Source: a virus
Reading direction: 5' to 3' (one strand)
IMG/VR virus record: IMGVR_UViG_3300027686_000039
Coordinates: 1 to 22,126 of that record
DNA: 22,126 nucleotides
A program made the translations under genes and the position numbers. The notes beneath the pieces are model-generated. The model was not told the origin of the DNA and ran no database searches. It worked only from the letters and a program-made list of their open reading frames with translations. This document shows, piece by piece, positions 4,148-22,126 of the stretch. Position 1 is the stretch's first letter. Every line of letters begins with the position of its first letter.

Positions 4148-4263
4148 CACAGATAAAATCTTTTCTATCAGAAAAATTTGCCAAGGCTGTTGCCCACATG
4201 AAAGAAGAAGAAGTTAAAGTTGTGGAAAAGCCAGTTAAGGCCAAGACTAAAGCTAAAAAGTAA
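4144..4263 (+). CDS. 39-aa Lys/Glu/Val-rich peptide
   Basis: A short ORF starting in an ATGA overlap with the previous gene and ending TAA at 4261-4263. It reads MTQIKSFLSEKFAKAVAHMK, then an acidic EEEVKVVEK, then a Lys-rich end (KAKTKAKK). The first half would make an amphipathic helix and the rest is charged and flexible. Support is positional: it fills the space between two coding genes with a four-base overlap on one side and four bases to the next ATG on the other. Function unknown. It is one of four consecutive short basic products before the portal. Confidence 0.6.
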   Translation: MTQIKSFLSEKFAKAVAHMKEEEVKVVEKPVKAKTKAKK

Positions 4264-4267
4264 TCCA

Positions 4268-7111: not shown

Positions 7112-7114
7112 CAC

Positions 7115-7159
7115 TTGCAATAAATATCGCTTGCGTGTATTTTGCCTTTAATGGATAAC
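7115..7159 (+). promoter_or_regulatory. Candidate host-type promoter(s) for the capsid cassette
   Basis: Two overlapping sigma70-like pairs lie just after the scaffold stop. TTGCAA (7115-7120) is followed after 17 bases by TATTTT (7138-7143). TTGCGT (7131-7136) is followed after 17 bases by GATAAC (7154-7159). The first also sits in an imperfect inverted repeat (ACAC-tt-GCAA at 7111-7120 against TTGCGTGT at 7131-7138), which could instead act as a weak RNA hairpin. A promoter here would give the capsid extra transcripts. Box matches are moderate, so confidence is limited. Confidence 0.4.
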
Positions 7160-7207
7160 CTGTTTGGCCCGTTAAATGTAGTAATCTACTGGTTGGCGCG
7201 GCCATAA
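7151..7207 (+). other. Possible 18-residue leader peptide before the capsid gene
   Basis: ATG 7151 opens an 18-codon frame ending TAA at 7205-7207 with product MDNLFGPLNVVIYWLARP. It has no Shine-Dalgarno sequence, and its ATG lies inside the second promoter candidate, so only transcripts from the upstream start would carry it. The hairpin at 7193-7214 covers its last codons and stop, an arrangement reminiscent of leader peptides. It may equally be a chance ORF. Confidence 0.15.
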
Positions 7208-7214
7208 CGCGCAA
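7193..7214 (+). other. GC-rich hairpin in the capsid leader
   Basis: TTG-g-CGCG (7193-7200) pairs with CGCGCAA (7208-7214) around a 7-base loop, giving seven base pairs with one bulged G. It is not followed by a T-run, so it is not an intrinsic terminator. Smaller dyads flank it: AGTA-atc-TACT at 7180-7190 and CCGA-att-TCGG at 7223-7233. The whole 7160-7260 stretch therefore reads as a structured 5' leader. It could stabilise mRNA or be a processing site; which one cannot be told here. Confidence 0.4.
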
Positions 7215-7263
7215 GCGACCGCCCGAATTTCGGATAACGGCTCACGTTTTGTTGAAACTCATT

Positions 7264-7270
7264 AGGAGGT
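7264..7270 (+). promoter_or_regulatory. Strong ribosome binding site of the capsid gene
   Basis: AGGAGGT is the best Shine-Dalgarno match noticed in the window and ends seven bases before ATG 7278. Most other genes rely on overlaps or weaker GGAG-type sites, so the capsid gene stands out as built for high translation. Confidence 0.85.
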
Positions 7271-7277
7271 ATCTGCA

Positions 7278-8108
7278 ATGGCGCAGAACGTCACAACGGC
7301 GTTTGTTGACTTATTCGATTCAGAGGTCAAGCAAGCTTATCAAGCCGAATCACTACTTCGCGGTACAATGCGTACCCGCACAGGTGTAGCCGGTAACACT
7401 GTCAAATTCCCAAAGATTGGCAAAGGTGTTGCTACTATTCGCGTTCCACAAACGGACGTGACACCATTAAACGTAACCTATGCTCAAGTAACAGCAACAA
7501 TGTCTGATTTCATTGCTGCCGAATACTCTGACATTTTCCAGCAGTCGCACATTAATTTTGATGAGCGTTCTGAGTTGGTACAAGTTGTATCAAAATCCAT
7601 TGCGCGTCGCATGGACCAGCTTTGCATTGATGCAATGGTTGGAAACGCTGGTACAACTGTTGCAACAACTATTGGTGGCAACGCAACGAACATGAACATT
7701 GCAAAGCTTCGCGCTACTGCGAAAGCAATGAACACTAAAAATGTTCCATCCGAAGGCCGTTTCCTTTTGATGCACGCAAGTCAGTTAGATGCACTCTTGG
7801 GTGAAGCTGAAGTAACAAGCCAAGACTTTGCTTCTGTAAAGGCTCTTGTCCGTGGTGAAATTAATTCATTCATGGGCTTTCAGATCTTGACTATGGGTGA
7901 TCGTGATGAGGGTGGTATTCCAAAACCTAACACCCGCAATTGCTTCGCCTGGCACAAAGATTCAATGGGCTATGCTGAGTCAATGTCTCAGAAAACCGAA
8001 GTTAACTATGTCCCAGAAAAGACATCGTTCTTGGTTAGCTCAATGTTCTCTGCCGGTTCTGTAACCATTGATGCAGAGGGCTTAGTACAAGTCTCATGCA
8101 CTGAATAA
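7278..8108 (+). CDS. Major capsid protein (HK97-fold type)
   Basis: A 276-aa protein following the scaffold gene and preceded by a strong ribosome site. It forms the icosahedral shell. Visible blocks: an N-terminal helix with FVDLFDSEVKQAYQAESLLR, VKFPKIGKG, then VTYAQVTATMSDFIAAEYSD and FDERSELVQVVSKSIARRMD, a spine-helix region found in phage capsid-like proteins of podoviruses. The middle has AKAMNTKNVPSEGRFLLMHA and LDALLGEAEVTSQDFASV, typical of the P-domain spine and the hexamer-contact region. The C-terminus includes NCFAWHKDSMGYAESM. No protease cleavage signal was noticed and no protease gene is nearby, consistent with a scaffold-dependent T7-like system. No frameshift-derived longer form is apparent. 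It is shorter than T7 gp10A (345 aa). Confidence 0.92.
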   Translation: MAQNVTTAFVDLFDSEVKQAYQAESLLRGTMRTRTGVAGNTVKFPKIGKGVATIRVPQTDVTPLNVTYAQVTATMSDFIAAEYSDIFQQSHINFDERSELVQVVSKSIARRMDQLCIDAMVGNAGTTVATTIGGNATNMNIAKLRATAKAMNTKNVPSEGRFLLMHASQLDALLGEAEVTSQDFASVKALVRGEINSFMGFQILTMGDRDEGGIPKPNTRNCFAWHKDSMGYAESMSQKTEVNYVPEKTSFLVSSMFSAGSVTIDAEGLVQVSCTE

Positions 8109-8121
8109 GGAGAACTAAAAA

Positions 8122-8385
8122 ATGGCATTTACTCAAGTAGGATTTGCAACCATCGCTGCGTCTAAGAAAGGAAATGCACCTAGTATGTATTCCTATATTA
8201 GCGCTGAAGCAAAAGCTACCGTAACTGGAGCTGGATACTTTAACAGTTTGGCTGACACTCTCGCAGTTGGTGATCTTCTGTATCATTATGATACGAACAC
8301 CCCAACGGCAACACTTAGCATTGTTCTTAGCAATAACGGCACAGTTGTCGATGTTACTGCTGGAACAGCAATTGGTGTAACCTAA
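8122..8385 (+). CDS. Small capsid-linked protein, possible head decoration protein (87 aa)
   Basis: AAGGAG (8107-8112) overlaps the capsid stop and lies nine bases before ATG 8122. The product is Ala/Thr/Val/Gly-rich and predicted all-beta: SMYSYISAEAKATVTGAGYF, then LADTLAVGDLLYHYD, then TATLSIVLSNNGTVVDVTAG. The YF-x-x-L-x-x-x-x-L-x-x-GD-x-(I/L) pattern, followed by a strand ending VTA, recurs in small genes right after podovirus capsid genes. A decoration protein or head-fibre base would suit the position and the shared transcription unit with capsid, but no function is proven from sequence. An intrinsic terminator starts seven bases after its stop. Confidence 0.75.
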   Translation: MAFTQVGFATIAASKKGNAPSMYSYISAEAKATVTGAGYFNSLADTLAVGDLLYHYDTNTPTATLSIVLSNNGTVVDVTAGTAIGVT

Positions 8386-8391
8386 AAGACT

Positions 8392-8415
8392 GGGGCGGTT
8401 CGCCGCCCCTTTCTT
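8392..8415 (+). terminator. Strong intrinsic terminator after the capsid cassette
   Basis: GGGGCGG (8392-8398) pairs perfectly with CCGCCCC (8403-8409) around a TTCG tetraloop, followed by TTTCTT (8410-8415). It is the clearest Rho-independent terminator in the window. It separates capsid and companion from the tail genes, so most transcripts should end here with limited read-through into tail tubular protein A. An A-rich stretch (8384-8387) on the other side gives only a weak T-run for the reverse direction. Confidence 0.9.
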
Positions 8416-8433
8416 ACCTCTTGGAGAACGCTC

Positions 8434-9051
8434 ATGGCCGCTGGTGACACTTCGCTTTCAATATGTTCGGACGCTCTAATATTGTTAGGCGCAGCTCCTA
8501 TATCATCTTTCACAGAGGGCAGTGATGGCGCACAAGCTTGTGATCGCTTGTATCCTGATCTTCGTGATAACGTCATTGCAAACTATATGTGGAGCTGGAG
8601 CGTAAAGAAGGTTCAGATTGCTCGTTTATCTACCAACCCACTTGATGAATGGAAGTATGCCTATCAGCTACCAGGCGATATGCTATCTGGTGTTATTGCT
8701 TTATTTCCTAGCAACGGCACTAATCAATCTTCTGCAAAGTATGGATGGGATATTTACGGTGACCAATTATTTACAAATTTTGAAACGGTTTTTATTGATT
8801 ATCAAAGCACAGTTTCAGAGGCTAAAATGCCAGTGTATTTTGTTAGACTGCTTCGTACAGCATTAGCGGCAGAGCTTGGCTTTGTAATTACTGACCAATT
8901 AGCTAAATCAGACTATTTTCGCTCCCTGGCGTTTGGCTCCCCAGCGGATGCTAACCGTGGTGGTTTAATGCGAGAAGCAATAAACATTGATAGCCGTGGC
9001 AAGCTGCCACAAGTTATTGAGGATTATTCTTTAATTAATGTGAGAAACTAA
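8434..9051 (+). CDS. Tail tubular protein A (T7 gp11-like adaptor/gatekeeper)
   Basis: A 205-aa protein (T7 gp11 has 196). GGAG (8423-8426) lies seven bases before ATG 8434. The N-terminus SICSDALILLGAAPISSF with a following DGAQACDRLYPDLRDNVI is the usual opening of this family. Next come YMWSWSVKKVQIARL, WKYAYQLPGDML, YGDQLFTNFETVFIDYQ and LLRTALAAELGFVITD, in the standard order. It forms the dodecameric ring between portal and nozzle and closes the packaged head. It lies just after the capsid terminator and one base before tail tubular protein B. No oddities. Confidence 0.93.
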   Translation: MAAGDTSLSICSDALILLGAAPISSFTEGSDGAQACDRLYPDLRDNVIANYMWSWSVKKVQIARLSTNPLDEWKYAYQLPGDMLSGVIALFPSNGTNQSSAKYGWDIYGDQLFTNFETVFIDYQSTVSEAKMPVYFVRLLRTALAAELGFVITDQLAKSDYFRSLAFGSPADANRGGLMREAINIDSRGKLPQVIEDYSLINVRN

Positions 9052-9052
9052 T

Positions 9053-11251
9053 ATGCGGGTTGTACAGTTCCAAACAAATTTCTCTGTTGGTGAGCTTGAT
9101 CCGCTTCTTCGCGCTCGAACAGATTTGGCACAATATCAAAACGCTGTTGAAGAAGCCACCAATGTAGTCATTCAGCCGCAAGGTGGCTTTAAGCGCCGTG
9201 AGGGTTTAAGATTTGTCTATGACTTTGGCACAGGCTTTACTGACTTTAAGATAATTCCATTTGAGTTTAGTGTGACTGATAGCTATTCTTTGGTTTTTGT
9301 TAATCAAAGGATTTACGTTTTTAAGGCTGGAGTTCTTCAAGCAAATATTAATGGAACGGGCAATGATTTTATAGCCGCCACACCTATTACGGCTGCTATG
9401 CTTGATGAGATAAATTACACTCAAGCGGTAGATACATTGATACTTTGCCATGAGGACTTGCAAACAAAGCGTTTAGTTAGAAATTCAGATACAAGCTGGA
9501 CTTTAGAAAACCTTCCTTTAAAAAACCTGCCCCAATACCCCTATGCATTCAGCACGCACTTGCCAAATTTCACAATTACGCCCAGCGCGTCTACTGGAAA
9601 TATTACTATAACGGCGTCTGCTGCAACTACGGATACTGGAAATGCTCAAGCTGGTTCAGCCAACACAATTACGTTAAAATCTTCAAGTTCGTTTTCGTCC
9701 GATGATGCACCTAACGGAATGTTTGTCAAAATTACTTCTGGTACTGGATCAGGTCAAACGCGCCAGGTTGAGGATTATGTTGGTTCTTCAAAGGTACTAA
9801 CAGTATATCCTCCTTGGGATACTGCGCCGAATGGAACGTCAAACTATTCTGTACATCCCTTTGAAGCTTCTGCCGTTGGTGGATTTGCTCAAGTAACAAG
9901 CACATTTGGCCGCGCTCGTTATGTTGAATTTGTTTCTAACACGGTAATGAAGGCTGTTACCGAAGTTAGTTTTTTTGACACAAGTGCAGTTGTTGCTGGA
10001 AACTGGGAAAGCGAACAGGGATATGAAGACGTTTGGTCTAATGCCCGTGGCTGGCCCAGGTCTGCCGCTTTCCATGAGGGGCGTCTATATTTTGGTGGAT
10101 CTAAATCAAGAGCTAATACAATATGGGGTTCGCAAGTTATAAATTTCTTTGACTTCGGGGCTGGAAGTGGGCTTGATGATGAAAGCGTTGAGGCAACAAT
10201 AAACACAAATCAGCTTAACAGCATTGTTAATTTGTTTTCTGGAAACGACTTGCGCGTCTTTACTACTGGCGCAGAGTTTGCGGTTCTTCAGTCTGGCGAT
10301 AATCCGATTACTCCATCCACTTTCTTTGTTCGGCCACAGACACGGCTGGGAACAAAACCTGGTCTTCCAATTGAAGATCTTAACGGTGCTACCGTGTTTA
10401 TTCAAAGGCAGGGTAAATCTTTAAACGCCTTCCAGTTCGGTGACAAAACTGCATCATACCAGGTGCAGCCTCTTTCTGCTCTTAGCTCTCACCTGTTAAA
10501 GAACCCGATTGACCTGGCTGCTAGACGCGCTGCCTCTACTGATGAGAGTGATCGCATATTTATTGTAAACGGAACAGACGGATCTATGGCCGTTTACTCT
10601 ATTCTAGTGGGGCAGAATGTTATTGCGCCTAGCCGTTTTACTACAGATGGCGATTTTATTGCGGTATCGGTTGAGATTGCTGATGTTTATGTAATTGTTA
10701 AACGCACAGTAAACAGCCAAGTTAGGTATATGCTGGAGAAGTTTGATTCTAGTCTTACGCTGGATAGCGCCAAGACGGGCGGAGCTGCTAATTCAGTGGC
10801 AATGACACAGCTACGGGGTAAGACAGTAGCAATAATACGCGATGGCGTTGTGCTGACCTCTCAGACGGTCCCCGCCTCACCATTTACAATTACCTTTACA
10901 ACACCGGCAACATCTAGTTTTCAAGTCGGATTAGATTATCCTGTTACAGTTAGAACTATGCCAGCCGAACCTGTGCTTTCGGGTGGATCTGTGCAGGGAT
11001 TTAAGAAGCGGATCATTCAAGTTGATGCAATTGTAAACAACACTCAAGACATGACCATTAATGAAAAAGAAATTTCGTTTAGAAGTTTGGGCGTTGATGT
11101 CCTTGACATAGCGGTTAAGCCATTTACCGGCACTAAGGTTGCACATGGATTTTTGGGCTTTAGTCAAACGGGACAAATTACAATAAGCCAAACCGTACCT
11201 TTGGCTATGACCGTTCTTGGTCTTGATTATCGTTTAAGCGTGGGGAATTAG
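9053..11251 (+). CDS. Tail tubular protein B (T7 gp12-like nozzle)
   Basis: A 732-aa protein (T7 gp12 has 794), starting one base after the previous stop. It forms the hexameric tail nozzle that carries the fibres. The N-terminus VVQFQTNFSVGELDPLLRAR and then QYQNAVEEATNVVIQPQGG with FKRREGLRFV is the family hallmark. The core has WPRSAAFHEGRLYFGGSKS, TIWGSQVINFFDF, LRVFTTGAEFAVL, ATVFIQRQGKSLNAFQF and YMLEKFD, as expected for beta-propeller-like nozzle proteins. Residues about 197-270 hold a Ser/Thr/Gly-rich module (NTITLKSSSSFSSDDAPNGM, SGTGSGQTRQVEDY, PPWDTAPNGTSNYSV) that looks like an inserted beta domain. The protein appears full length. Confidence 0.93.
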   Translation: MRVVQFQTNFSVGELDPLLRARTDLAQYQNAVEEATNVVIQPQGGFKRREGLRFVYDFGTGFTDFKIIPFEFSVTDSYSLVFVNQRIYVFKAGVLQANINGTGNDFIAATPITAAMLDEINYTQAVDTLILCHEDLQTKRLVRNSDTSWTLENLPLKNLPQYPYAFSTHLPNFTITPSASTGNITITASAATTDTGNAQAGSANTITLKSSSSFSSDDAPNGMFVKITSGTGSGQTRQVEDYVGSSKVLTVYPPWDTAPNGTSNYSVHPFEASAVGGFAQVTSTFGRARYVEFVSNTVMKAVTEVSFFDTSAVVAGNWESEQGYEDVWSNARGWPRSAAFHEGRLYFGGSKSRANTIWGSQVINFFDFGAGSGLDDESVEATINTNQLNSIVNLFSGNDLRVFTTGAEFAVLQSGDNPITPSTFFVRPQTRLGTKPGLPIEDLNGATVFIQRQGKSLNAFQFGDKTASYQVQPLSALSSHLLKNPIDLAARRAASTDESDRIFIVNGTDGSMAVYSILVGQNVIAPSRFTTDGDFIAVSVEIADVYVIVKRTVNSQVRYMLEKFDSSLTLDSAKTGGAANSVAMTQLRGKTVAIIRDGVVLTSQTVPASPFTITFTTPATSSFQVGLDYPVTVRTMPAEPVLSGGSVQGFKKRIIQVDAIVNNTQDMTINEKEISFRSLGVDVLDIAVKPFTGTKVAHGFLGFSQTGQITISQTVPLAMTVLGLDYRLSVGN

Positions 11252-11253
11252 AT

Positions 11254-11751
11254 ATGGTTGCTTTAGCACCAGCAATTTTAACGGCGGGAAAAGCCGCCAT
11301 GACGTTTGCATCTTCTGGAGGCGGTCAGCTATTAATGGCTGGAGTTTCAGCAGCGGGTCAGATGTCAGCCGGTAGATCCCAGCAAAGAGGTTATGACGCC
11401 CAGGCGTTGCAAGCAGAGCTACGCGGCAGATCTGAGGCTATTGCCTATAAGCAAAGAGGCGCTGACGCTTTGAGAAACCTAAATGAAACACTGGCGGCAA
11501 TCGTTTCTAGGTCTGCGGCTGGCGGTGTTGATCCCACTTCTGGCTCTGCTTCTACCTTGCAGGGATACGCAATGAATGAGGGAGTAAGAGAGCAATCAAT
11601 AGCTGCCGACAATGCGGTATTGGCGCTGGGCCAAGCTCAAAGCCAAGCGGGAATTTATAGATCTGCTGGTAGGTCTGCGATGTTATCGTCTTATGTTTCT
11701 GCTGCCGGATCTGTAGGCCAGGGTGCATATCGATACGGACAATTGAGTTAG
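11254..11751 (+). CDS. Internal virion protein, gp14-like
   Basis: A 165-aa protein (T7 gp14 has 196) starting two bases after tail tubular protein B. The N-terminus is Ala/Gly-rich and hydrophobic (LAPAILTAGKAAMTFASSGG, LLMAGVSAAGQM), followed by a helical, polar centre (AQALQAELRGRSEAIAYKQR) and a Ser/Gly-rich segment with RSAAGGVDPTSGSASTLQ. This is the typical pattern of gp14-type proteins, which in T7 leave the head first and form the outer-membrane part of the DNA-ejection channel. The hydrophobic start fits membrane insertion. Gene order (nozzle, then gp14, then gp15) supports the call. Confidence 0.85.
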   Translation: MVALAPAILTAGKAAMTFASSGGGQLLMAGVSAAGQMSAGRSQQRGYDAQALQAELRGRSEAIAYKQRGADALRNLNETLAAIVSRSAAGGVDPTSGSASTLQGYAMNEGVREQSIAADNAVLALGQAQSQAGIYRSAGRSAMLSSYVSAAGSVGQGAYRYGQLS

Positions 11752-11761
11752 GAAAACAAGC

Positions 11762-14431
11762 ATGGCAATTCTCCCTAGATATCAGCGACTTGGCATTGTT
11801 GACCGTCAGCCAACGCAAACAGATTTTGCTGACACGCGGGAAGCCGCCCGTCTTGGTACTAATATTTCTCAGCAAGTTAGCCGGATGTCTGATTTTGCAA
11901 TGAAGCAAGGTGCTGACGATGCTAAAATGAGGGGTGAAGAGCTTATCCGTACTGATGGAGCCTTCCCCACTCTTAAAGATATTAAATCAAAGGGTGGGCC
12001 TAGAAGTATTGCTGAAAAATCTGCATACGCTTTAGGTTCTCAGGTAGCTGTTGCTCAAGTCCAGGCAGATGCCGAAGTATATATTATGCAGATCCTTAAC
12101 GATGGTGAGAAAAACAAAACATCTTTCACCCAAGTCCAGGCACAACTAAGGGATCTTACCGATGGTTATTCATCTGCGTTAGCTGACGTTGATCCTGGGG
12201 CGTCAATGCTTCTGCAAACACGTTTAGGTGGGGCTATAGGAAAAGCTGAAGAACGCTATTCTAATTTTTATGTTGGAGTTCAAGCAGCCAGATCTGCAAA
12301 GAAACTAACTGATATTGCTGACTTAAAACTTAATGAAATACTTGAGAGTGCCATACGGGCAGGGAGTAACTCACAAGAACAAATATCACAATCAGTTGCG
12401 GATGCTGTAACATTGCTTGCTGGGTTAGGCGCTACTGAGGAACAGCTTGATGCCTTTGAGGTTGGCACTAACAATGCAGCTTATAAAGAAAAAGCAATAT
12501 TTGAATTTAATAAATCTTCTATTCCTGAACAAGAAGAAATGCTATCAACTCTTCTGACTACTCCGATGCCTGGAATGTCATTAGAAAAAACTCAATCATT
12601 TAGAAAATCCCTAACGTCTACTTATAATAATAATTTAAGAGCGCAGGCTTCAAAGAGTGCTGGAGTTGTGGCTGATGTTAGAGAACAAGCCGGTATCCTT
12701 TCCAAAGGTGGGATGCCCAGCCTAGCAGAAATAGAGCGCCTAAAAACCGCAGCTATTAATCTTGGTGAAAACGAAAGCGGCTTAAAAGCACAAGAGGCAG
12801 TTAGGATGCTTGAGTTTAATGCTGAAAGAGCTTCAGTCTATAGGCAGATGTCATTTGAAGATTTAACCGCTGAAGTTGATGACTTAAAGGGCGGCATGGA
12901 AGGGCAGGGCCGTGCGGGTCGTGATACTTTAATTGAGGTTGATACCTACAACGCTGCTGTTACTTATTTAGCTGCGGCTCAAAGAAAAGTAGATGGGCTT
13001 GAGGCTCAAGAAAAAGAACAATTTCAACCTTTCATTAATCTTGCAACCGAATCCTTATCTGCTCTTAAAAAAGAATTAGATTCGGGACAGCCACTGAGCC
13101 AATCATTTATTGATAATTTAAGAAGCAAAATCGGAAATATTCCAGAACGATTAACAAAAGAAATATTGCGGGATTTATCGAATCTTGAGGACATGAACGA
13201 GCTTGCCACTGATTTATCTACGGCAAGACCCGCTGATATAGAGAAGTTTATATCAGATTATTTAAAAACAGGTTCTACAGTTCGCCAAGGTCCTGGACTT
13301 GACGGAAGCCCTGGTGAAGATACCTTTGTGGGTGCAAAGGGCGTTGATACTCCTTTCGAGTTTGAAGTTAGAGATCTTGCAGAAAAAATGCTTTCTAATA
13401 TGAAAGCCGAGCTTAAATCAGATCCAATTTCATTTGCTGCAAAAGTTGGATTAAGTGATGGTAGCGGTAATGGAGTTAACATTACTCCTATAGATTTCAC
13501 TGATCCTAGCAAAGTCAGTGACCAGATCTTACAGCGCATAGGGGACGCCAGGTTGGTATCTGGTAAATACGGATCTCCAATACAATTTCTTACAATTTCA
13601 GAAAAATTAGCAGTTAAAAACATTCTTGAAAATGGGACGATGGCAGATCAAATGATAGTTCTTGGCCTTATCGTTGAAGGCTCTGGTCAAAACTCTCCGA
13701 AGTTTTTAGAGGAAATATCTAAAGAATCTCCATTCTTTGCCCAAGTCGGATCTCTTGTATCTAGTCAAACTGGCAGTGGTCTTGCTAGTGCTGAATCTGC
13801 TTTAAGGGGTCAAATGCTAATATCAGATCCAAAAACTCAAGGCCCTGCTGAATTTACAAAGACAAACATAGATCCAGCATTTAGAAATTTAACTTCTGAA
13901 TCTCTTGCAAAGGTCGATGGGGCTTTAGCCCCCATTATGCTGACCGCATCTGCAATTTACGCTGATGTTGCTAGATCTGATGATTTCTTTAACGAAAGTA
14001 AATGGATTGACTCAATTAATAGAGCAATGGGCGCAGATATAAATGCTGGCACTGGCGGTGTCCAAGAGGTTAGAGATTTAAACACTTATATATTCCCTGG
14101 ATTTACTTCGGATAATTATGAGAACGCTTTAGAAACTGCAACGCCACAGGATATAATGGCATCCATTTCAAGCATCAGAAATTCTGTGCCAGATGCGATT
14201 GGATATGGTACATCCTTAGATCCAGAAATGCTTGAAGCCTTGGGGGGATTTAAAAGGCCCACCCGCGATGATCAAAACGCCTATACTTCTGGAAGTGATG
14301 ATTACAATCTGGTTTATGCTGGAGGAAATAATTACGAAATAAAGTATAAAAATCAACAAACAATTTTAGATACTGACGGCGAAGCTGTTTTGATTGATAT
14401 GCGAAAGCTTATAGAAATGACCCTGCCATGA
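11762..14431 (+). CDS. Internal virion protein, gp15-like (889 aa)
   Basis: Ribosome site AGGAAA overlaps the previous stop. The product starts MAILPRYQRLGIVDRQPTQT, then an ARLGTNISQQVSRMSDFAM helix and QGADDAKMRGEELIR, an opening I associate with gp15-type internal proteins of podoviruses. The rest is long alpha-helical, charged and largely without Cys, with coil-rich stretches around YLAAAQRKVDGLEAQEKEQF and LSALKKELDSG. T7 gp15 (747 aa) forms the periplasmic part of the ejection tube; the same role is inferred here. No lytic transglycosylase motif was seen, so wall opening is not explained by this protein. It ends in an ATGA overlap with the next gene. Confidence 0.82.
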   Translation: MAILPRYQRLGIVDRQPTQTDFADTREAARLGTNISQQVSRMSDFAMKQGADDAKMRGEELIRTDGAFPTLKDIKSKGGPRSIAEKSAYALGSQVAVAQVQADAEVYIMQILNDGEKNKTSFTQVQAQLRDLTDGYSSALADVDPGASMLLQTRLGGAIGKAEERYSNFYVGVQAARSAKKLTDIADLKLNEILESAIRAGSNSQEQISQSVADAVTLLAGLGATEEQLDAFEVGTNNAAYKEKAIFEFNKSSIPEQEEMLSTLLTTPMPGMSLEKTQSFRKSLTSTYNNNLRAQASKSAGVVADVREQAGILSKGGMPSLAEIERLKTAAINLGENESGLKAQEAVRMLEFNAERASVYRQMSFEDLTAEVDDLKGGMEGQGRAGRDTLIEVDTYNAAVTYLAAAQRKVDGLEAQEKEQFQPFINLATESLSALKKELDSGQPLSQSFIDNLRSKIGNIPERLTKEILRDLSNLEDMNELATDLSTARPADIEKFISDYLKTGSTVRQGPGLDGSPGEDTFVGAKGVDTPFEFEVRDLAEKMLSNMKAELKSDPISFAAKVGLSDGSGNGVNITPIDFTDPSKVSDQILQRIGDARLVSGKYGSPIQFLTISEKLAVKNILENGTMADQMIVLGLIVEGSGQNSPKFLEEISKESPFFAQVGSLVSSQTGSGLASAESALRGQMLISDPKTQGPAEFTKTNIDPAFRNLTSESLAKVDGALAPIMLTASAIYADVARSDDFFNESKWIDSINRAMGADINAGTGGVQEVRDLNTYIFPGFTSDNYENALETATPQDIMASISSIRNSVPDAIGYGTSLDPEMLEALGGFKRPTRDDQNAYTSGSDDYNLVYAGGNNYEIKYKNQQTILDTDGEAVLIDMRKLIEMTLP

Positions 14432-17400
14432 TTTTTGGATCTTCCCAAACAAACCCAGCCTTAAATCCTAGCGAATATAGGAGCAAGCCCCCAGCGCCTT
14501 GGTTGGAAAATGTAACAACGGCCTTTACCGTTGGAAAGTTTAATGGTGACAGTGGTTCTAATAGCGAAGGTTTTGCAAAATTTGAAGCTTGGAAACCCAT
14601 TATGGATGCTTTGAAAGATTTTGAAGTTCCTGGCTTATCAAAATATTATGGACAAAACGAATATATAAACCCTGGTACGCTTTTAGTAAGCTCCCCTTTA
14701 GCTGGTAATATTGGTGGAGATCAAAGAGGCTATAACCAATTAGCAGAAAACATATTTAGTTTTATCCGTGATAATCAATCCACGCTGCCGCCAGATCTAG
14801 CTTCTGTAAATGAAGAAACCTTTGCCGAAATGACAAAGGATTTTGTTATGGGGCAAAGGGCCGAGCTTGAAGAGCTTTACGAAACCAACCCAGGCATGGC
14901 CGGTGCGATTGGTAGGTTTATAGGATCTATGGGAGCAACAGGTGCTGACCCAATAGCCCAGGCAACAATGCCTTTCGGGGGATGGTCTAAAAGCTTGTGG
15001 AAAAGAATGGCGCAGAACGCTCTTATAAACGGTGGCACTGGTGCTATTTCAGAAGTAGCAGTTAAAGATTGGTATGACGAACTAGGTCTTGAATATACAT
15101 TTAAGGATTTTGTGTACAATGTCGGAGCAAACGCTGCTTTCGGCGCGGCCCTACCTCTCGCTGGTCGTGGATTTAGACTTAGTGTTGAACAGTCTCAAAG
15201 GGGTTGGAGAGCCTTAACTGCAAACGGAACAAAGAACGTAACCCCAGAAGATCAACTAGTAATAGATGCTATGACAAACCAGGCGGATCTTGAAGCGGCA
15301 AACCCATTTGTTACGCCAGATCCTAATGAGGCGATATCGGTTCACAACCAGCGGTTAGAAGCAGCAAGCGCGGCCACGGCTAATGCTGAACCAGTTATTA
15401 TTCCTCAAGACGCAGGGCTTCCAATCAGGGCAGATGCTATAGATAATCTTGACGGTGTTATCTTTAAGTATGATCCTGATGAAATTGAAATTGATGCTAA
15501 GACTTTTCAGTTTAAATCTGACAGTGATGAGCTTGGCGTTACAAGCCGATTGAGGGATGAAGTCGTTTGGGATGACTCCGCCTCTGGCACTGTTCACGTT
15601 TACGAATATGCCGATGGTCGTGTAGTTATTGCCGATGGACACCAACGATTAGGTCTAGCAAAAAGAATTAAAGCTCAAGACCCTTCTCAAAAAATAACAA
15701 TATACGCCCGTAAGTTTAGACAGGTCGATGGTATTACTCCACAACAGGCAATGGTTGAAGCTGCTCTGAAAAATATAGTTGAGACTGAGTTTTATTCCCC
15801 AGGTAGAGCTATTGATGCGGCAAAGGTTCTTAGATTTGACCCAAGCAAAGAGTCGAGGCTTCCACGCACACAAATAGCGGTTCAAGCTAGGGGCATGATG
15901 CGTTTAAGCGATGATGCTTTTATGTCAGTTGTAAACGAAGTTATACCTCCTAACTATGCTTCTATTGTTGGCAGATTAATTGATGATGCTGGCTTGCAAG
16001 AAGCGGCAATTAAAGTTCTTTCTAAAACAAAACCGGCAACTGCTTTCGAGGCAGAGGCTATAATTCGTCAGGTTCGAGAGTCAGATACCGATCAAATTAA
16101 ACAGATTGATCTTTTTGGCGAGAGCTTTTTTACTGAAACTCTTTATATTGAAAGGGCTAAGATATTAAATAATTCTTACAAAGAGCTGCGCCGTGATAAA
16201 GCAGCGTTTGAAACCTTGGTAAAAAACTCAGAGCGTTTAGAAGCTGAAGGAAATGTTCTTGTAAAAAACGCAAACCAGAAAAAGGTGACTACAGATGCCC
16301 AAACGATCACGCTCCTCCAAGCCCTCGCAAACCGCAAAGGCCCCCTCTCAGACGCCCTTAACGAAGCCGCAAGAACAGCCAAAGACACAGGAAGCGACGT
16401 CGAGGCTACAGCAGGCTTTATCGACGCTATCAGAAAAGCAATTGACGGAGGCGATTTCGAACGCATATCAAATGGCGACATTGGACGCTCTATCAATGAT
16501 CCAGCGCCGATCTCAAAATCTGAGATTGAAGAACCAGCTCTTGACGGATTCGACGAACCAACAGGCATAGCAGCGCAACGCCAGGCCGACCAGCTAGAGC
16601 AAGATATGTTTCGTGTTGAAGAGGTTACACCCGACGTTTCCGCAAGAAGTCCTAATGATATAGAGGCGGATCTAAAAGCGCGTCAGCCGGTAGAAACTGT
16701 TGATGATATATATGCAATTGCGGATGAATCCCAATCCTACATTGCAACAATAGCTGCGGATATTGAAAGTGATCTTGGAGTTACCTTTGACAACCCTGGA
16801 TTAAAGAAGATCAAAGAAGCCAAAAGTAAAATGCAGCGCAAAGGATATGTTTCATCAAATCAAATGACGGACATATCGCGCGGTGGATTTATAATTAATA
16901 AAGCAGAAGATGCTGACGCTATTGTTGCTAGATTTGGACGGGATGCAGAAATATTGGATGAAGGCTGGAATTTCACACCGGCTGGATACTTTGATCGCAA
17001 GCTTTTAGTCAGAACGCCAAACGGTATTGTTTCTGAAATTCAAATATGGTCGCCAAAGCTTCGCGCTGCAAAAGAAGAAACCGGCACTAAGCTTTATACT
17101 AAGATGCGGAAATCAAAAGATCCGGCAGAGGTGGAAGCTATATCTCTTCAAATGAGAGAGCTTTATGCAAATGCTTTAAAAAGCGAAGATCAATCTTTCA
17201 GATCATTGTCAGGCATAGATAACTTGCCAAAAGTATCTTCGAATGCAGACATAAACGCCGCTTCGTCAGGGATCACTCGTCCTGTCTCAAAGACATCTGG
17301 AGCGTCTACTGATGTCCAAGCGCCACCTGGCTCAAGGATCGCCACGGCTTCTGATGGTGAAATGGAAATAGCGGGACGTCCGTCCCAATTAACAAATATC

Positions 17401-17595
17401 ATGGATGATACCTCCGACCTCAATTTAGATATCACTTCGGCAGATGTCAACCTTGATCTTGAATTTCCTATGGGACAAAAGGCAAATGCTGCTGGAGATG
17501 ATTTAGAAGTTGTACCTATGACCTTATCAAATTTGAAAAAAGAATTGGATCAACAGGAATTAATGATTAAGCGTTTGGAGTTCTGCACAATATGA
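14428..17595 (+). CDS. Large ejection-type polyvalent protein with ParB/DdrB-like and RelA/SpoT-like domains (1055 aa)
   Basis: In the place of T7 gp16 and expected to enter the cell with the DNA. Residues 1-300: internal-virion-like, with Gly/Ala-rich amphipathic helices (AGAIGRFIGSMGATGADPIA; NVGANAAFGAALPLAGRGF). About 345-450: ParB-superfamily fold of the DdrB type, with VVIADGHQRLGLAKRI (DGHQRL at 403-408). About 520-720: helical QIDLFGE, ERAKIL and ALANRKGPLSDALNEAAR, a block I associate with phage polyvalent proteins. About 735-915: RelA/SpoT-like, with basic KSKMQRKG (799-806), MTDISRGGFIIN (D815), AGYFDRK (852-858) and SEIQIWSP (E870), i.e. equivalents of the synthetase DI..R, GY and E-x-Q motifs. 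The His after E-x-Q in synthetases is not seen (EETGTKLY). A disordered linker and a helix close it. Codon use changes sharply at about 16300-16610. No lytic transglycosylase motif at the N-terminus, unlike T7 gp16. Confidence 0.8.
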   Translation: MIFGSSQTNPALNPSEYRSKPPAPWLENVTTAFTVGKFNGDSGSNSEGFAKFEAWKPIMDALKDFEVPGLSKYYGQNEYINPGTLLVSSPLAGNIGGDQRGYNQLAENIFSFIRDNQSTLPPDLASVNEETFAEMTKDFVMGQRAELEELYETNPGMAGAIGRFIGSMGATGADPIAQATMPFGGWSKSLWKRMAQNALINGGTGAISEVAVKDWYDELGLEYTFKDFVYNVGANAAFGAALPLAGRGFRLSVEQSQRGWRALTANGTKNVTPEDQLVIDAMTNQADLEAANPFVTPDPNEAISVHNQRLEAASAATANAEPVIIPQDAGLPIRADAIDNLDGVIFKYDPDEIEIDAKTFQFKSDSDELGVTSRLRDEVVWDDSASGTVHVYEYADGRVVIADGHQRLGLAKRIKAQDPSQKITIYARKFRQVDGITPQQAMVEAALKNIVETEFYSPGRAIDAAKVLRFDPSKESRLPRTQIAVQARGMMRLSDDAFMSVVNEVIPPNYASIVGRLIDDAGLQEAAIKVLSKTKPATAFEAEAIIRQVRESDTDQIKQIDLFGESFFTETLYIERAKILNNSYKELRRDKAAFETLVKNSERLEAEGNVLVKNANQKKVTTDAQTITLLQALANRKGPLSDALNEAARTAKDTGSDVEATAGFIDAIRKAIDGGDFERISNGDIGRSINDPAPISKSEIEEPALDGFDEPTGIAAQRQADQLEQDMFRVEEVTPDVSARSPNDIEADLKARQPVETVDDIYAIADESQSYIATIAADIESDLGVTFDNPGLKKIKEAKSKMQRKGYVSSNQMTDISRGGFIINKAEDADAIVARFGRDAEILDEGWNFTPAGYFDRKLLVRTPNGIVSEIQIWSPKLRAAKEETGTKLYTKMRKSKDPAEVEAISLQMRELYANALKSEDQSFRSLSGIDNLPKVSSNADINAASSGITRPVSKTSGASTDVQAPPGSRIATASDGEMEIAGRPSQLTNIMDDTSDLNLDITSADVNLDLEFPMGQKANAAGDDLEVVPMTLSNLKKELDQQELMIKRLEFCTI
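16295..16570 (+). CDS. Candidate overprinted gene inside the polyvalent protein (+1 frame, 91 aa)
   Basis: An ORF in the +1 frame of the 1055-aa gene, with AAAGGTGA (16281-16288) six bases before its ATG. The product starts with a basic Ser/Pro/Thr stretch (MPKRSRSSKPSQTAKAP) and ends as a plausible amphipathic helix (LQQALSTLSEKQLTEAISNA and on to IQRRSQNLRLKNQLL). In the host frame, codons of 16321-16500 end in C 28 times and in T 11 times, against 7 C and 26 T in 16081-16260 (my counts). The skew starts near this ORF's ATG and fades shortly after its stop, as dual coding would produce. The alternative is a segment imported from a GC-richer relative, with the ORF a by-product. Function unknown. 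Confidence 0.35.
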   Translation: MPKRSRSSKPSQTAKAPSQTPLTKPQEQPKTQEATSRLQQALSTLSEKQLTEAISNAYQMATLDALSMIQRRSQNLRLKNQLLTDSTNQQA

Positions 17596-20060
17596 CTTTT
17601 AAAAATTGCATTGATGATGGCGTTAAGGCTGGAGAAATTAACCAAGAGAGTGCTGACGAAATCTTTAGCCTCTTTGATGAGTTGGAAGTTAAGTATAATA
17701 AGCAAATGGGTGGGGCTGCTGCTACAGCAAGAGCTGCTGGCGAAACAACCATTGCAACCAAAAAGCTCATATTAGAGCGCAAGCGCCGTGCTATGCTCCA
17801 GGCTAAGACCTGGCAGAAAATAAAAATACATCTGGATACCTTTAAAACAGTTACTGGCATTCAGAACAAATACAAAGCTGCATTAGATTTATTCGAGCAG
17901 TCTCAAACATCTAAATTTCAAAGCGTTGCTCAAATTCATTCCGTAGTAAAGAACAGAGCTAATTCAACTATGAATGAATATCTGGCTACGTTTAAAAGAA
18001 ATATTATTGGGGAAACTCAGGAAAAAGCTAAGTTAAAGAATTTAATTCGTGAAATTTTTGGGGAAGATACTGGAGATATTTCCGCCAGGCAGATGATGGA
18101 GGGCTGGAAAGCTTCCGCTGAATATCTTCGCAAAAGGTTTAATGCTGCTGGCGGAGCTATAGTTAATAGAATTGATTGGGGCCTTCCTCAGTTTCACGCC
18201 TCTATTAAAGTTCGTTCTGCTGGATTTACTGAGTGGAGCAATTTTATTCGTGGCCGTTTAGATTTAAACAAAATGGTTGACGAGCAAACCGGCTTGGCAT
18301 TTTCTCCGCAAAAACTTGAGATTGCCTTACGAGATTCTTATGAAACTATAAGATCAGATGGGTCTAACAAAATAAAAGAAGGTCAATATTCGGGCAATAA
18401 ATCTCTTGCTTCTAGGAACCAAGACCATCGTTTCTTTGTATTTAAGGACGCCGAATCCTGGATGGAATACCAGGAGAAATTTGGTAACCCGAACCCATTC
18501 GATGCTATGATGGGTCATATAGATACAATGTCGCGTGATATTGCTATGATGGAAGTCCTGGGGCCAGATCCAAAAGCAACCGTTAGATTTGTTAAAGATA
18601 CTTTAAGAAAAGAAGCTGACCTATCAGGTGATGAAAAGCAAATGAGAGCAGCCACAAAATCAGGGGAAGCTGTGGATGATCTATATTCTGTAATTGTTGG
18701 AACTAATAACGCTCCAGTTGACGGGGTGTTTGCTACTGGATTTGCCGGTCTTCGCCAAACTCTGCAATCGGCCCAACTTGGATCTGCTGCCGTTGCCGCT
18801 GTTACGGATATGAATTTTGGTAGAATAGCCAGGGGAATGAACGGGCTTCCACAAACTAAAATTCTTAATAGTTACTTAAAGCTTATGAACCCTCTTACCC
18901 TTAAAGAAAAAGGCAAGCTGGCTATAAGAATTGGCCTAACTGCTGAAGGTTGGTCATCGCTTGCAGCCGGTCAAATGCGTTATGTTGGAGATATGTCAGG
19001 GCCGGAAGTTACCAGGCGAATAAGTGATTTTGTTATGAGGGCCTCGTTGCTTTCCCCTTGGACCCAGGCCGGTAGATGGGCCTTTGGCATGGAATACCTT
19101 GGCTTTCTAGGTGATAATGTTGGCAAGACCTTCGATCAGCTACCGGCAAATATGCAGAAAAGCATGAACCACTACAATATTGGCGCGGAAAAATGGGAGG
19201 TAATGAGGAAGACCCCCCTTCACGAACATGAAGGCGCGTCATTCCTTACTGCTGATAAGATTGAAAACCGTACTGACATAAGCGCCGGTGATGCTCAAGA
19301 CTTGGCAACCGCTTTAATGGTTATGATAGACACAGAAACTAACTTTGCTGTTCCAAGCACTTCAATTAGGGGACGTACTGCATTAACTGGAGACACAAGG
19401 CCAGGGACAATAGCCGGTGAGCTGACCAGATCTTTTGCTATGTATAAAGGTTTTGGGGTTACGTTAGTTAATACTCATATCATGCGTGGCTTGGCTCAAC
19501 CAACGGCCCGTGGCAAAGGCACTTACTTTGCAGATCTATTAATTAGCACGACACTAATGGGCGCTTTGGCAATGCAGCTCAAAGAAATGAGTAAAGGTCG
19601 CGATCCAAGGCCAATGGATAGTCCTGAGTTTTGGGGCGCGGCTCTGTTGCAGGGCGGTGGTCTAGGTATATATGGCGATTTTATGTTTGGAAATGTAAAC
19701 AGATTTGGCGATGGATTAGCATCTACAATTGCCGGTCCTGTGGTTGGGTTTGCAAGCGACCTTCAAAAGCTTACTATTGAAAATATTATTCAAGCATCCC
19801 AGGGTAAAGATACAAACGCGGCGTCAGAGTTTATTAGCTTTGCTGGCAGATATACACCTGGATCATCTCTTTGGTACTCCCGTTTGGCACTAGAGAGACT
19901 TGTACTTGACCAGGCGAAACTATGGGCTGACCCCAAGGCAAGGACTAAGTTTAGAAGAAAAGAAAAAGACTATAGGAAACAGTATGGTCAGAAATCTTGG
20001 TGGTCTGCTGGTGACACTTCACCCTCAAGATCTCCAGATCTATCAAACGTGTTTGATTGA
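17592..20060 (+). CDS. Large internal virion / ejection-type protein (822 aa)
   Basis: Starts in an ATGA overlap with the previous gene. The opening MTFKNCIDDGVKAGEINQES with DEIFSLFDELE, then a basic helical stretch (ERKRRAMLQAKTWQKI), REIFGEDTGD, YLRKRFNAAGGAI and WGLPQFH form an order I recognise from the protein that follows the DdrB-like polyvalent gene in many podoviruses. The C-terminal half has hydrophobic helices (SAQLGSAAVAAVTD; LLISTTLMGALAMQL; IAGPVVGFASDL) and GRDPRPMD with LLQGGGLGIYGDFMFG. These could insert in the inner membrane, as proposed for gp16-type ejection proteins. No catalytic motif was identified. The charged C-terminus (RTKFRRKEKDYRKQYGQ) is followed by Ser/Pro-rich residues. 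Together with the 1055-aa protein it may equal a split, expanded gp16. Confidence 0.75.
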   Translation: MTFKNCIDDGVKAGEINQESADEIFSLFDELEVKYNKQMGGAAATARAAGETTIATKKLILERKRRAMLQAKTWQKIKIHLDTFKTVTGIQNKYKAALDLFEQSQTSKFQSVAQIHSVVKNRANSTMNEYLATFKRNIIGETQEKAKLKNLIREIFGEDTGDISARQMMEGWKASAEYLRKRFNAAGGAIVNRIDWGLPQFHASIKVRSAGFTEWSNFIRGRLDLNKMVDEQTGLAFSPQKLEIALRDSYETIRSDGSNKIKEGQYSGNKSLASRNQDHRFFVFKDAESWMEYQEKFGNPNPFDAMMGHIDTMSRDIAMMEVLGPDPKATVRFVKDTLRKEADLSGDEKQMRAATKSGEAVDDLYSVIVGTNNAPVDGVFATGFAGLRQTLQSAQLGSAAVAAVTDMNFGRIARGMNGLPQTKILNSYLKLMNPLTLKEKGKLAIRIGLTAEGWSSLAAGQMRYVGDMSGPEVTRRISDFVMRASLLSPWTQAGRWAFGMEYLGFLGDNVGKTFDQLPANMQKSMNHYNIGAEKWEVMRKTPLHEHEGASFLTADKIENRTDISAGDAQDLATALMVMIDTETNFAVPSTSIRGRTALTGDTRPGTIAGELTRSFAMYKGFGVTLVNTHIMRGLAQPTARGKGTYFADLLISTTLMGALAMQLKEMSKGRDPRPMDSPEFWGAALLQGGGLGIYGDFMFGNVNRFGDGLASTIAGPVVGFASDLQKLTIENIIQASQGKDTNAASEFISFAGRYTPGSSLWYSRLALERLVLDQAKLWADPKARTKFRRKEKDYRKQYGQKSWWSAGDTSPSRSPDLSNVFD

Positions 20061-20081
20061 ATAGAATAACCGTGCTATAAA
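20053..20081 (+). promoter_or_regulatory. Extended -10 promoter of the tail fibre gene
   Basis: TTGATT (20053-20058) and TATAAA (20076-20081) are exactly 17 bases apart, and TGC directly precedes the -10 box, giving the extended -10 element. It overlaps the last codons of the previous gene and lies 25 bases before the fibre ATG, with transcription expected to start near 20088. It is the best host-type promoter match in the window and would allow fibre expression independent of upstream read-through. Confidence 0.65.
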
Positions 20082-20106
20082 TTGAGCGATTAAAAAGGAA
20101 ACAGAT

Positions 20107-22126
20107 ATGAGTGTCCCAATCAACCCTGTTGTAAGGAGAGTTCAGTTTACTGGTAATACCAGCACTGGACCTTTTGCCTTTAGCTTTAACATACTTGCAG
20201 CAACCGATATTTCTGTGCATAAAAACGCAGCAACATTAACTTTAACTAATGACTATAGCGTTTCAATTAGCTCAAACGGTACTGGTTCAATTAGTCTTGG
20301 AGTTGCTTTGCAATCTTCAGATGTTCTTACAATCATTGGTGGTCGTGAGTTATCTCGAACAACAGACTTTGTTACTGCTGGTGATTTGTTGGCTTCAAGC
20401 TTGAATGAACAACTTGATAGTAATGTTATCATGGCACAACAGCTTGATGAAAAAATTAATCGTTCTTTATTTCTTGACGCTGGTGATGTTTCTACAAACC
20501 TCAAGCTCCCCGTAAAGAATGTGCGTAAGGGTACGGTTCTGGGGTTTAACGCAACAAGCGGAGATCCAGAAGTCGGTCCAAAAATTACCGCTGTTCAGTC
20601 TTTAGCTAATGTTACTGCGGCTATTAATGTTCTCGGTACGACTGCTGCTGTCGAAGACCTGTCAATCTTAGGTACAGCCGCCATTGTAGAAGACATGAGC
20701 ATACTGGGTACAAGTGGCAATGTAACGGCAATGGGATTGCTTGGGGTTAGTGCCGTTATCACTGACATGGGTATTTTAGGCACGGCTGCTATCGTAGAGG
20801 ACATGGCTTTATTAGGCACGTCTGGCAACGTATCTGCAATGGCCTTACTGGGAACATCAGCAGCAGTCGCTGATATGGCCATTCTAGGCACATCTGCAAT
20901 CGTAGCTGATATGGCAATTTTAGGTACAGATGATGTTGTAGCCGACATGAATATTCTGGGAAGCTCAGATGTTGTCACTGACATGAATTTGTTAGCTACC
21001 GCTGCCGTTATTGAAGACATGGGTCTACTAGCTACAAGCGCTAATGTAGCCGCAATGGGTAACATTGGTACGTCAGCTAACGTAACTTCTATGGGCTTAC
21101 TGGGAACAAGTGCCGTTGTTACAGATATGGGAATATTGGGAACCGCCGCTATCGTTGAAGATATGAGCTTACTAGGAACAAGTGCTAATGTAACTTCAAT
21201 GGGGTTGCTCGGCACAAGCGCTGTAGTAGAAGACCTGGGGTTACTGGCAACAAGTGCAGTGATTGAAGATATGGGATTACTGGCAACCTCTGCTGTCATT
21301 GGGAACATGGGGTTGCTTGGTACGAGTGGCAATGTAACGGCAATGGGTAATGTTGGCGGTTCAATAACTAACGTCAATACTGTGGCTTCAAATGTTGCTG
21401 GAGTTAATAGTTTTGCAGAACGATATAGGATAGCATCTTCAGCACCATCAAGCTCCTTAAACGTGGGAGATTTATATTTTGACACATCGGCTAACGAACT
21501 AAAAGTTTATAAGTCTAGTGGTTGGGCAGCGGCTGGTTCTACTGTTAATGGTACATCAGCTAGATTTCATTACGATATAACTGGCACGCCAACGACAGTA
21601 AGTGGCAGTGATGCCAATAGTAATACTTTAGCTTACGATGCTGGTTTCATCGACGTCTACGTCAATGGTGTCCGAATGTCACCAGCCGATATAACAACAA
21701 CCTCTGGTTCATCAGTCGTTTTTGCAAGTGCTTTAGCTGCTGGAGATGAAGTTGACATTGTGGCATTTGGTACGTTTGCAGTAGCAAACATTGTGGCAAC
21801 TGGTGCATTAAACTCTGGATCAATAACAAGTGGATTTGGCACGATTAATAATGGGGCCAGCACAATTACAACTACTGGTGTTGGTTCATTCGGATCTTTA
21901 GATATTAGTGGTGCAATAGACGTAGACGGCACAACGAACCTTGATGTGGTAGACATTGATGGCGCTGTCGATATGGCACTTACTCTTGCTGTTACAGGTG
22001 TAGTCACAGCCAACGCTGGTGTGGTTGTAGATAATATTACAATAGATGGTCAAGAGATTGATGTAAGCTCTGGTGACCTAACGCTAGACGTTGCAGGGGA
22101 TATTTTCCTTGATGCTGGTGGAGATA
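20107..22126 (+). CDS. Tail fibre protein, T7 gp17-like N-terminus (partial, runs off the right edge)
   Basis: ATG 20107 follows AAGGAA (20095-20100). The frame stays open to the window end (673 codons), so the C-terminal receptor-binding part is missing. Residues 1-160 match the T7 gp17 N-terminal attachment domain: VRRVQFTGNTSTGPFAFSF, ATLTLTNDYSVSI, LTIIGGRELSRTTDFVTAG and a helix LNEQLDSNVIMAQQLDEKI. This part docks on the nozzle. Residues 175-414 are twenty 12-residue repeats. Then GSITNVNTVASNVAGVN, ERYRIASSAP and LYFDTSANELKVYKSSGW, followed by a beta module with FIDVYVNGVRMSPADIT and AGDEVDIVAFGTF (about 505-560), and Gly/Asp/Thr repeats of beta type to the edge (LDISGAIDVDGTTNLD). 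The N-terminal call is firm; host specificity cannot be read. Confidence 0.9.
   Translation, partial: MSVPINPVVRRVQFTGNTSTGPFAFSFNILAATDISVHKNAATLTLTNDYSVSISSNGTGSISLGVALQSSDVLTIIGGRELSRTTDFVTAGDLLASSLNEQLDSNVIMAQQLDEKINRSLFLDAGDVSTNLKLPVKNVRKGTVLGFNATSGDPEVGPKITAVQSLANVTAAINVLGTTAAVEDLSILGTAAIVEDMSILGTSGNVTAMGLLGVSAVITDMGILGTAAIVEDMALLGTSGNVSAMALLGTSAAVADMAILGTSAIVADMAILGTDDVVADMNILGSSDVVTDMNLLATAAVIEDMGLLATSANVAAMGNIGTSANVTSMGLLGTSAVVTDMGILGTAAIVEDMSLLGTSANVTSMGLLGTSAVVEDLGLLATSAVIEDMGLLATSAVIGNMGLLGTSGNVTAMGNVGGSITNVNTVASNVAGVNSFAERYRIASSAPSSSLNVGDLYFDTSANELKVYKSSGWAAAGSTVNGTSARFHYDITGTPTTVSGSDANSNTLAYDAGFIDVYVNGVRMSPADITTTSGSSVVFASALAAGDEVDIVAFGTFAVANIVATGALNSGSITSGFGTINNGASTITTTGVGSFGSLDISGAIDVDGTTNLDVVDIDGAVDMALTLAVTGVVTANAGVVVDNITIDGQEIDVSSGDLTLDVAGDIFLDAGGD
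20629..21348 (+). repeat. Twenty tandem 36-bp units coding 12-residue fibre repeats
   Basis: Twenty consecutive units with no gap, consensus LLGTSAxVxDMG. Position 11 is Met in 18 of 20 units and Leu in the other two; positions 2-3 are mostly Leu-Gly. Two flavours alternate: an acidic one (AxVEDM) and a polar one (xNVTSM/xNVTAM). Units 3-6 and 13-16 follow the same order of flavours, suggesting an older multi-unit duplication. At DNA level the units are well diverged: units 2 and 15 have identical 12-residue products yet differ in 8 of 12 codons. A degenerate unit precedes (SLANVTAAIN) and one follows (SITNVNTV). Confidence 0.9.

Follow-up and report, generated by a model that had tools for sequence, protein, structure and literature searches.

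Alarmone synthetases are familiar as sensors of stress, as effectors against phages and as toxins between bacteria. The occurrence of RelA/SpoT domains in polyvalent proteins of phages, combined with ParB and with MuF, was published in 2017 (Iyer et al., PMC5512222) in a paper that names (pro)phages of spirochaetes and epsilonproteobacteria as well as MuF fusions and argues for injection of polyvalent proteins. Exported synthetases comprising Tas1/Apk1, SaEAS and VpEAS/RelV are described in PMC12691689, where the product of VpEAS is given as (p)ppGpp only, and Apk2 MuF toxins in PMC12226406 and PMC11699363. Here we analyzed a late gene of a podovirus-like record, the product of which (P0001) carries a synthetase domain of this type.

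Genomic context of P0001

The window, meaning the whole stretch of DNA analyzed, is a 22,126-base virus record with a T7-like podovirus gene order as judged by Pfam and PHROGs. Genes for the small and large terminase, portal (Pfam Head-tail_con, 7e-97), T7-type scaffold, major capsid and two tail tubular proteins are followed by those for a gp14-like internal virion protein, P0002, P0001, P0003 and the tail fibre (Table 1). P0001 is the middle of three large ORFs between the gp14-like gene and the tail fibre; in T7 the same interval holds two. An earlier note on this DNA had put the gene in the gp16 position, and its placement in the internal-virion-protein block was confirmed, 'gp16' being a loose label for the middle ORF of three. 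The ORF overlaps the neighbouring gene by 4 bases on each side, so that a further gene does not fit between P0001 and P0003.

Comparison with other records revealed one IMG/VR record (3300027668_000097) with 99.96% identity across window bases 8363-22126. Among phage records, the closest portal was found in the seawater Methylophilales phage MEP301, in which the portal, capsid and terminase all matched (about 61, 61 and 68%). No match to P0001 or P0003 was found in MEP301 at E 0.01, and the internal-protein cassette therefore differs. Elsewhere in the window, a GNAT-like protein is encoded in the terminase-portal interval (3056-3535; phrog_308 'internal virion protein', 4.7e-11; Pfam Acetyltransf_4 only 0.007) and may be another virion enzyme. 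A DUF6321 protein (1.1e-24) is encoded upstream of the portal at 4220-4543, and in several of the PHROGs matching it, longer proteins end with this domain. The tail-fibre-like protein at 20107-22125 contains LED repeats (8.6e-11, below the Pfam cut-off) and runs off the record.

Table 1. Positions in the window of P0001, its regions and motifs, and the adjacent late genes
Feature	Coordinates	Strand	Basis or remark
gp14-like internal virion protein gene	11254..11751	+	phrog_418, E 3.3e-5
P0002, large late protein upstream of P0001	11762..14431	+	phrog_992 head protein, 3.5e-12
P0001, 1055-aa late protein with RelA/SpoT-type synthetase domain (RSD)	14428..17595	+	ORF
N-terminal region, residues 1-335	14428..15432	+	Presumed virion/ejection part
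ParB/Noc-like NTP-binding fold and DNA-binding-like helical region, residues 342-553	15451..16086	+	AF2, Foldseek, VIA
RSD, residues 755-928	about 16690..17211	+	Profiles, AF2 model
Stretch absent in frame from the L018 and L019 homologues, 702 bases/234 codons	16702..17403	+	7-base microhomology
Basic ATP loop, K793 ... K801 ... R804 K805	16804..16842	+	Aligned with KSRERAMQK of Tas1
D815-I-S-R818, predicted Mg-binding Asp and ATP-binding Arg	16870..16881	+	Alignment
syn3 acceptor motif, G853-Y-F-D856-R-K858	16984..17001	+	DxK, versus SxH (RSH) or GxN (Apk2)
E870-I-Q872, predicted catalytic Glu and Gln	17035..17043	+	Alignment
C-terminal tail of P0001 with Cys near the end	17518..17592	+	Kept in RSD-less L018
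P0003, large virion structural protein downstream of P0001	17592..20060	+	phrog_684, 1.2e-178

P0001 carries a RelA/SpoT-type synthetase domain

A Pfam scan of P0001 matched nothing, and the RSD was named by none of the Pfam, PHROGs and NCBIfam scans; an unnamed family, phrog_37685, covered residues 792-910 (E 0.0016). PF04607, the Pfam profile suggested in the earlier note as a check, matched none of 26 records at E<=10, though 24 of them carry the RSD. When the RSDs were searched individually, 2 of the 24 matched at E<=0.5 (best 0.016), and the gathering cut-off was not reached in the P0001 family. The single P0001 sequence was likewise not significant against the PDB (best Tas1, E=0.11), and family profiles were therefore used. 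With these, the match to the solved Tas1 grew stronger as rows were added, from E=7.3e-5 with 17 through 1.6e-10 with 23 to 4.4e-18 with 24, and the 24-row profile also matched SaEAS (listed as SaSAS) at 1.5e-4. The best non-phage matches found were two Photobacterium proteins, which scored 6.5e-12 and 1.8e-11 with the same 17-row alignment that gave 7.3e-5 for Tas1 (filters off, same database size). The 23-row and 24-row alignments (A2 and A4) were thinned from the related loci, numbered here with the prefix L, by removal of second copies and close relatives, with L077 (85 aa matched) and L086 also removed from A4; alignment A3 comprised 14 of 20 prepared stretches, without L002, L004, L012, L014, L018 and L032.

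The domain was also detected from outside the family. A profile of four non-family RSDs (two Photobacterium proteins, one Azospirillum protein and Bordetella phage PHB04) scored 43.0 bits (E=2e-10, 177,635 sequences) against residues 758-918 of P0001, whereas domain-only shuffles of P0001 scored at most 6.8 bits in 500 copies. With the far-phage profile only 69 of 500 shuffles scored at the reporting limit, compared with 500 of 500 for the other profile. A chance-motif reading was rejected on the four-RSD profile set against shuffles, together with the conserved active site and the dN/dS values described below.

Structure prediction gave the same result. The AF2 model of the RSD (23 rows; pLDDT 88.4, pTM 0.81) is a mixed beta-sheet with flanking helices, which is the RSD fold, and its closest solved structure was Tas1/Apk1 (VIA Z 16.1, rmsd 2.6 A, 161 residues aligned). 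RelP/RelQ (Z 15.7), SaEAS (15.3), CapRel (12.3) and FaRel2 (7.8) followed, and the best non-RSD structure scored 6.8; rows differing by <=1 were treated as tied. Searching a viral model library with the fold returned 17 matches in all (E<=0.001), among them large phage proteins labelled RelA/SpoT, DdrB-like or ART-PolyVal-like. A contig pattern scan yielded 1 relative, in Palleronia pelagia (L043), out of 54 pattern matches. Analysis of 50,697 phage records by tblastn with the window RSD revealed 7 weak records (E 0.3-0.7), including phages phiM12 and PHB04, whose matched proteins are RSD proteins by annotation or Pfam; no match to the L041 RSD was found in phage records by tblastn.

Taken together, these data show that P0001 carries a genuine RelA/SpoT-type synthetase domain that is un-annotated in the libraries tried. 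The nucleotidyltransferase domain proposed in the earlier note was thus borne out by profiles and fold, with the RelA/SpoT sheet present in the predicted structure. Its location also stood, but 16690-17175 was a somewhat short extent.

Conserved active site and an unusual acceptor motif

All motifs read from the sequence in the earlier note were found at the residues given there: KSKMQRKG from residue 799, DISR at D815, GY at G853 and SEIQI at 869 with E870. When aligned with Tas1, the ATP-loop Lys residues, the D-x-x-R motif and the catalytic Glu occurred in the expected order, and from this alignment D815 and E870 are predicted to lie in one pocket. K793, K801, D815, R818, D856, K858 and E870 were invariant in all 24 aligned RSDs, the window included and down to 30% identity, and Q872 was kept in 23. 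Of the five residues listed in ATP binding for Apk1/Tas1 (PMC12691689), three are matched by R818 (aligned with R330 in the numbering of that paper), E870 and Q872; the N370 position is occupied by K858, and no conserved counterpart of K353 was seen in the aligned RSDs. With the main catalytic residues conserved, the inactive enzyme entertained as an option in the earlier note is unlikely.

The acceptor motif is S-x-H in guanosine enzymes and G-x-N in Apk2, and motif swaps in Apk2 left specificity unchanged (PMC12226406); the motif is therefore a hint, not proof. In the P0001 family every one of the 24 aligned RSDs had D-x-K, and the canonical S-x-H was absent. The earlier note pointed to a missing His after E-x-Q; the telling absence, in our view, is that of the guanine-reading His of GYxSxH, the place of which is taken by K858. 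Tas1 has G-V-N at this motif, the PHB04 RSD D-L-M and the Azospirillum protein S-T-T, and the tandem Photobacterium proteins both have GYRDLK, a D-x-K motif. The Photobacterium proteins appear to resemble the RelV/VpEAS group in having a signal-peptide-like start (by eye), a Vibrionaceae origin and a single RSD. A guanylate assignment rests on one motif. The D-x-K motif provides a checkable substrate prediction for exported synthetases. Two tandem RelV-like synthetase genes with signal-peptide-like starts (by eye) are located at 5800-6588 and 6808-7632 of the Photobacterium sp. DA100 record (L090), for the whole of which the PLSDB table holds 3 features only.

Other regions of P0001

Of 19 aligned relatives, 17 were 27-43% identical to P0001 in the N-terminal region, with L003 (99%) and L018 (96%) much closer. 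The AF2 model of residues 336-735 was of modest confidence (mean pLDDT 68.9). Within it, residues 342-553 matched Noc by Foldseek (5.7e-5) and ParB/Noc by VIA at Z 8-9, with an rmsd above 10 A in several rows, and include GHQR at residues 404-407. Pfam ddrB-ParB was identified ahead of the RSD in L040, L041, L042 and L043 (E 2e-31 to 5e-37), and did not match P0001, L012 or the phage SI2 homologue. No MuF domain was detected in P0001 by the Pfam sequence scan at E<=1, and no known export domain by Pfam (E<=1) or NCBIfam (E<=0.1). A Cys near the C-terminus was present in 30 of 30 loci (by eye), including RSD-less L018, and the tail is possibly a packaging or maturation signal. L012, a 1231-aa homologue (about residues 765-900), and L014 have an extra ~130-160 aa before the RSD that look ART-like by eye; Pfam ART gave no match in L012. 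As modelled, P0001 is a late phage protein encoded beside virion genes with two effector-type domains, a ParB-like fold and an RSD.

The RSD is exchanged between and lost from homologues

Homologues were compared in 171 pairs, without L018, which has no RSD; identity in the RSD was higher than in the N-terminal part for 167 of these and higher than in the ParB part for 148. L015 and L016 were 97% identical in the RSD and 25% in the N-terminal part; the window and L003 were 99% identical in the N-terminal part and 65% in the ParB part. In L018 and L019 the RSD is missing as an in-frame deletion (Table 1), the placement of which is ambiguous by 7 bases because of the microhomology, and both homologues still have the ParB part and the C-terminal tail. 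The phage SI2 homologue matched up to residue 751 and its gene stops shortly after. The absence of the RSD from these three homologues indicates that it is not essential. Its dN/dS was 0.035-0.283 in 12 of 13 pairs, the remaining pair being saturated; the value was not always the lowest of four regions, and was highest (0.283) for the window and L003. Given its loss in relatives and its low dN/dS, the module is accessory yet under purifying selection where present. Related phages with (window) and without (L018/L019) the RSD offer a natural comparison.

Search for an antidote gene

SaEAS and VpEAS are described in PMC12691689 as having no adjacent immunity gene. We examined 30 loci (29 with the RSD, and L018), and in all of them the next ORF of at least 250 aa begins at most 58 bases before and at most 5 bases after the stop. 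In 6 of the 30 its start is overlapped in another frame by a short ORF of 54-111 aa, which was not counted as a gene. No adjacent immunity gene was found in the 30 loci, and none of 26 records searched for an HD_4 alarmone hydrolase contained one; these records may be fragments, and small IapK-like proteins would not be recognisable in them by this search. In the apparent absence of an antidote the P0001 family is like SaEAS and VpEAS and unlike MuF-Apk2 as described in PMC12226406 and PMC11699363. It also differs from phage PHB04 (L049), where an RSD protein annotated as hypothetical (5104-7369; PF04607, 4.4e-7) follows the portal gene and is itself followed by a small ORF and then an HD_4 protein (3.3e-21); no such neighbour was found in the P0001 family. 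The PHB04 RSD and HD_4 genes look like a phage toxin-immunity set.

Proposed function and alternative explanations

We propose, with a probability of about 0.5, that P0001 is a virion-delivered enzyme of the exported-alarmone-synthetase branch (Tas1/Apk1, RelV/VpEAS), most likely with GDP/GTP as the acceptor, that stops host growth. P0001 would be a polyvalent protein made late, packed alongside the other internal virion proteins and sent into a new host together with the DNA; gene order and the published arguments on polyvalent proteins make ejection likely. Once inside, the RSD would bind ATP-Mg via K793/K801, R818, D815 and E870/Q872 and transfer pyrophosphate onto a purine nucleotide at its 3'-OH, while DNA or NTPs would be ligands of the ParB-like part. 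The RSD is very probably catalytically competent, and it is quite probable that the acceptor is a nucleotide and not tRNA. GDP/GTP would be the most likely acceptor because D-x-K is the motif of the RelV-like proteins; on this one motif, a guanylate acceptor is a balanced call. In a small cell, a few very fast molecules would then need only minutes to increase (p)ppGpp and deplete GTP, and host rRNA and mRNA synthesis and growth would stop at the moment of infection.

Turnover of Apk1 and SaEAS has been reported as roughly 100,000-190,000 per minute, so that delivery of a few molecules is plausible for this enzyme class. At such rates, a handful of virion copies would process about a million nucleotides per minute, comparable to the purine pool of a small cell. 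A strong GTP drain would also hurt phage synthesis and, with no antidote, the enzyme must be silent in the producing cell. That host shut-off is the benefit to the phage falls slightly short of an even bet. A fuller version, which we hold tentatively and with some doubt, is that a podovirus/prophage branch, with one member in the Palleronia pelagia genome, might carry an antidote-free RelV/VpEAS-type synthetase in the virion that causes an instant stringent response and GTP drain, with D-x-K marking the branch and the module swapped and lost as a stand-alone weapon. If this is true, an alarmone synthetase would be one of the earliest phage enzymes in the host cytoplasm, and its delivery in the virion would make the host's stress signal an instant shut-off tool.

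The same delivery could serve a (p)ppApp synthetase that uses ATP/ADP and drains ATP, as Tas1/Apk1 or the Apk2 MuF toxins do. Tas1 was the nearest solved structure by sequence and headed the fold list, and the distant relative L083 matched, among isolate phages, only 10 pneumococcal phage records (weak, E 0.01-0.06), several of them named head morphogenesis proteins and probably Apk2-type MuF. This reading is nonetheless unlikely given the uniform D-x-K of the family, as opposed to GxN in Apk2 and G-V-N in Tas1, and given the immunity genes adjacent to Apk1 and Apk2, which have no counterpart found beside the P0001 family. Pyrophosphorylation of the tRNA 3'-CCA end, as by toxSAS, would block host translation and spare phage components. 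The RSD fold does match CapRel and FaRel2, but both ranked below Tas1, RelP, RelQ and SaEAS, and the sequence relatives found were nucleotide enzymes or uncharacterised proteins. The tRNA modification suggested in the earlier note is not favoured, as the nearest characterised enzymes, Tas1/Apk1 and, if the Photobacterium proteins are its kin, VpEAS, act on nucleotides (PMC12691689), and we regard it as a slim prospect.

A different target is somewhat less improbable than a tRNA acceptor, though still improbable: the RSD may act as an anti-competitor or anti-defence module directed at a phage that superinfects the cell, at a prophage already resident or at a defence based on alarmones, not at the healthy host. 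Loss and swapping of the cassette between backbones is what would be expected of an accessory weapon, and relatives combine the RSD with ParB-type and, by eye only, ART-like modules; against this, the window is a 22-kb fragment only. Finally, the RSD could be a degenerate or purely structural remnant, in keeping with its absence from L018 and L019, the unusual acceptor motif and the missing counterpart of Tas1 K353. With its main catalytic residues invariant, dN/dS well below 1 and conservation above that of the N-terminal part in nearly every pair, this degenerate-domain reading was rejected as highly improbable.

Comparison with known systems

The RSD in a phage polyvalent protein is known as a kind, and the device that the earlier note considered unusual therefore has precedent in PMC5512222. 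P0001 resembles the polyvalent proteins described there in combining a ParB-like part and an RSD in a large late protein beside virion genes, with a mosaic architecture. It differs in its T7-like podovirus setting, in an RSD invisible to Pfam and perhaps in the D-x-K motif. A search of limited wording among open papers brought up no published account of an RSD occupying a T7-like internal-protein slot. The Apk2 MuF toxins (PMC12226406, PMC11699363) are likewise phage head-region proteins with a C-terminal RSD, but they have GxN, and neither a MuF domain nor an IapK/Aph1-type neighbour was found for P0001. The toxSAS of toxin-antitoxin systems and CapRel share the RSD fold; they are cellular toxin-antitoxin-type proteins and stood lower in the structure ranking. 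The exported alarmone synthetases (Tas1/Apk1, SaEAS, VpEAS/RelV; PMC12691689) are similar in synthetase fold and main catalytic residues and provide the best sequence matches, and the P0001 RSD is homologous to the Apk1/Tas1 synthetase domain (E=4.4e-18). Unlike them, P0001 has no recognised signal peptide, PAAR or LXG, and the virion route would presumably serve instead. What is new in the P0001 branch is the combination of a lack of any antidote found, a podoviral context, the D-x-K motif and an affinity to the exported synthetases.
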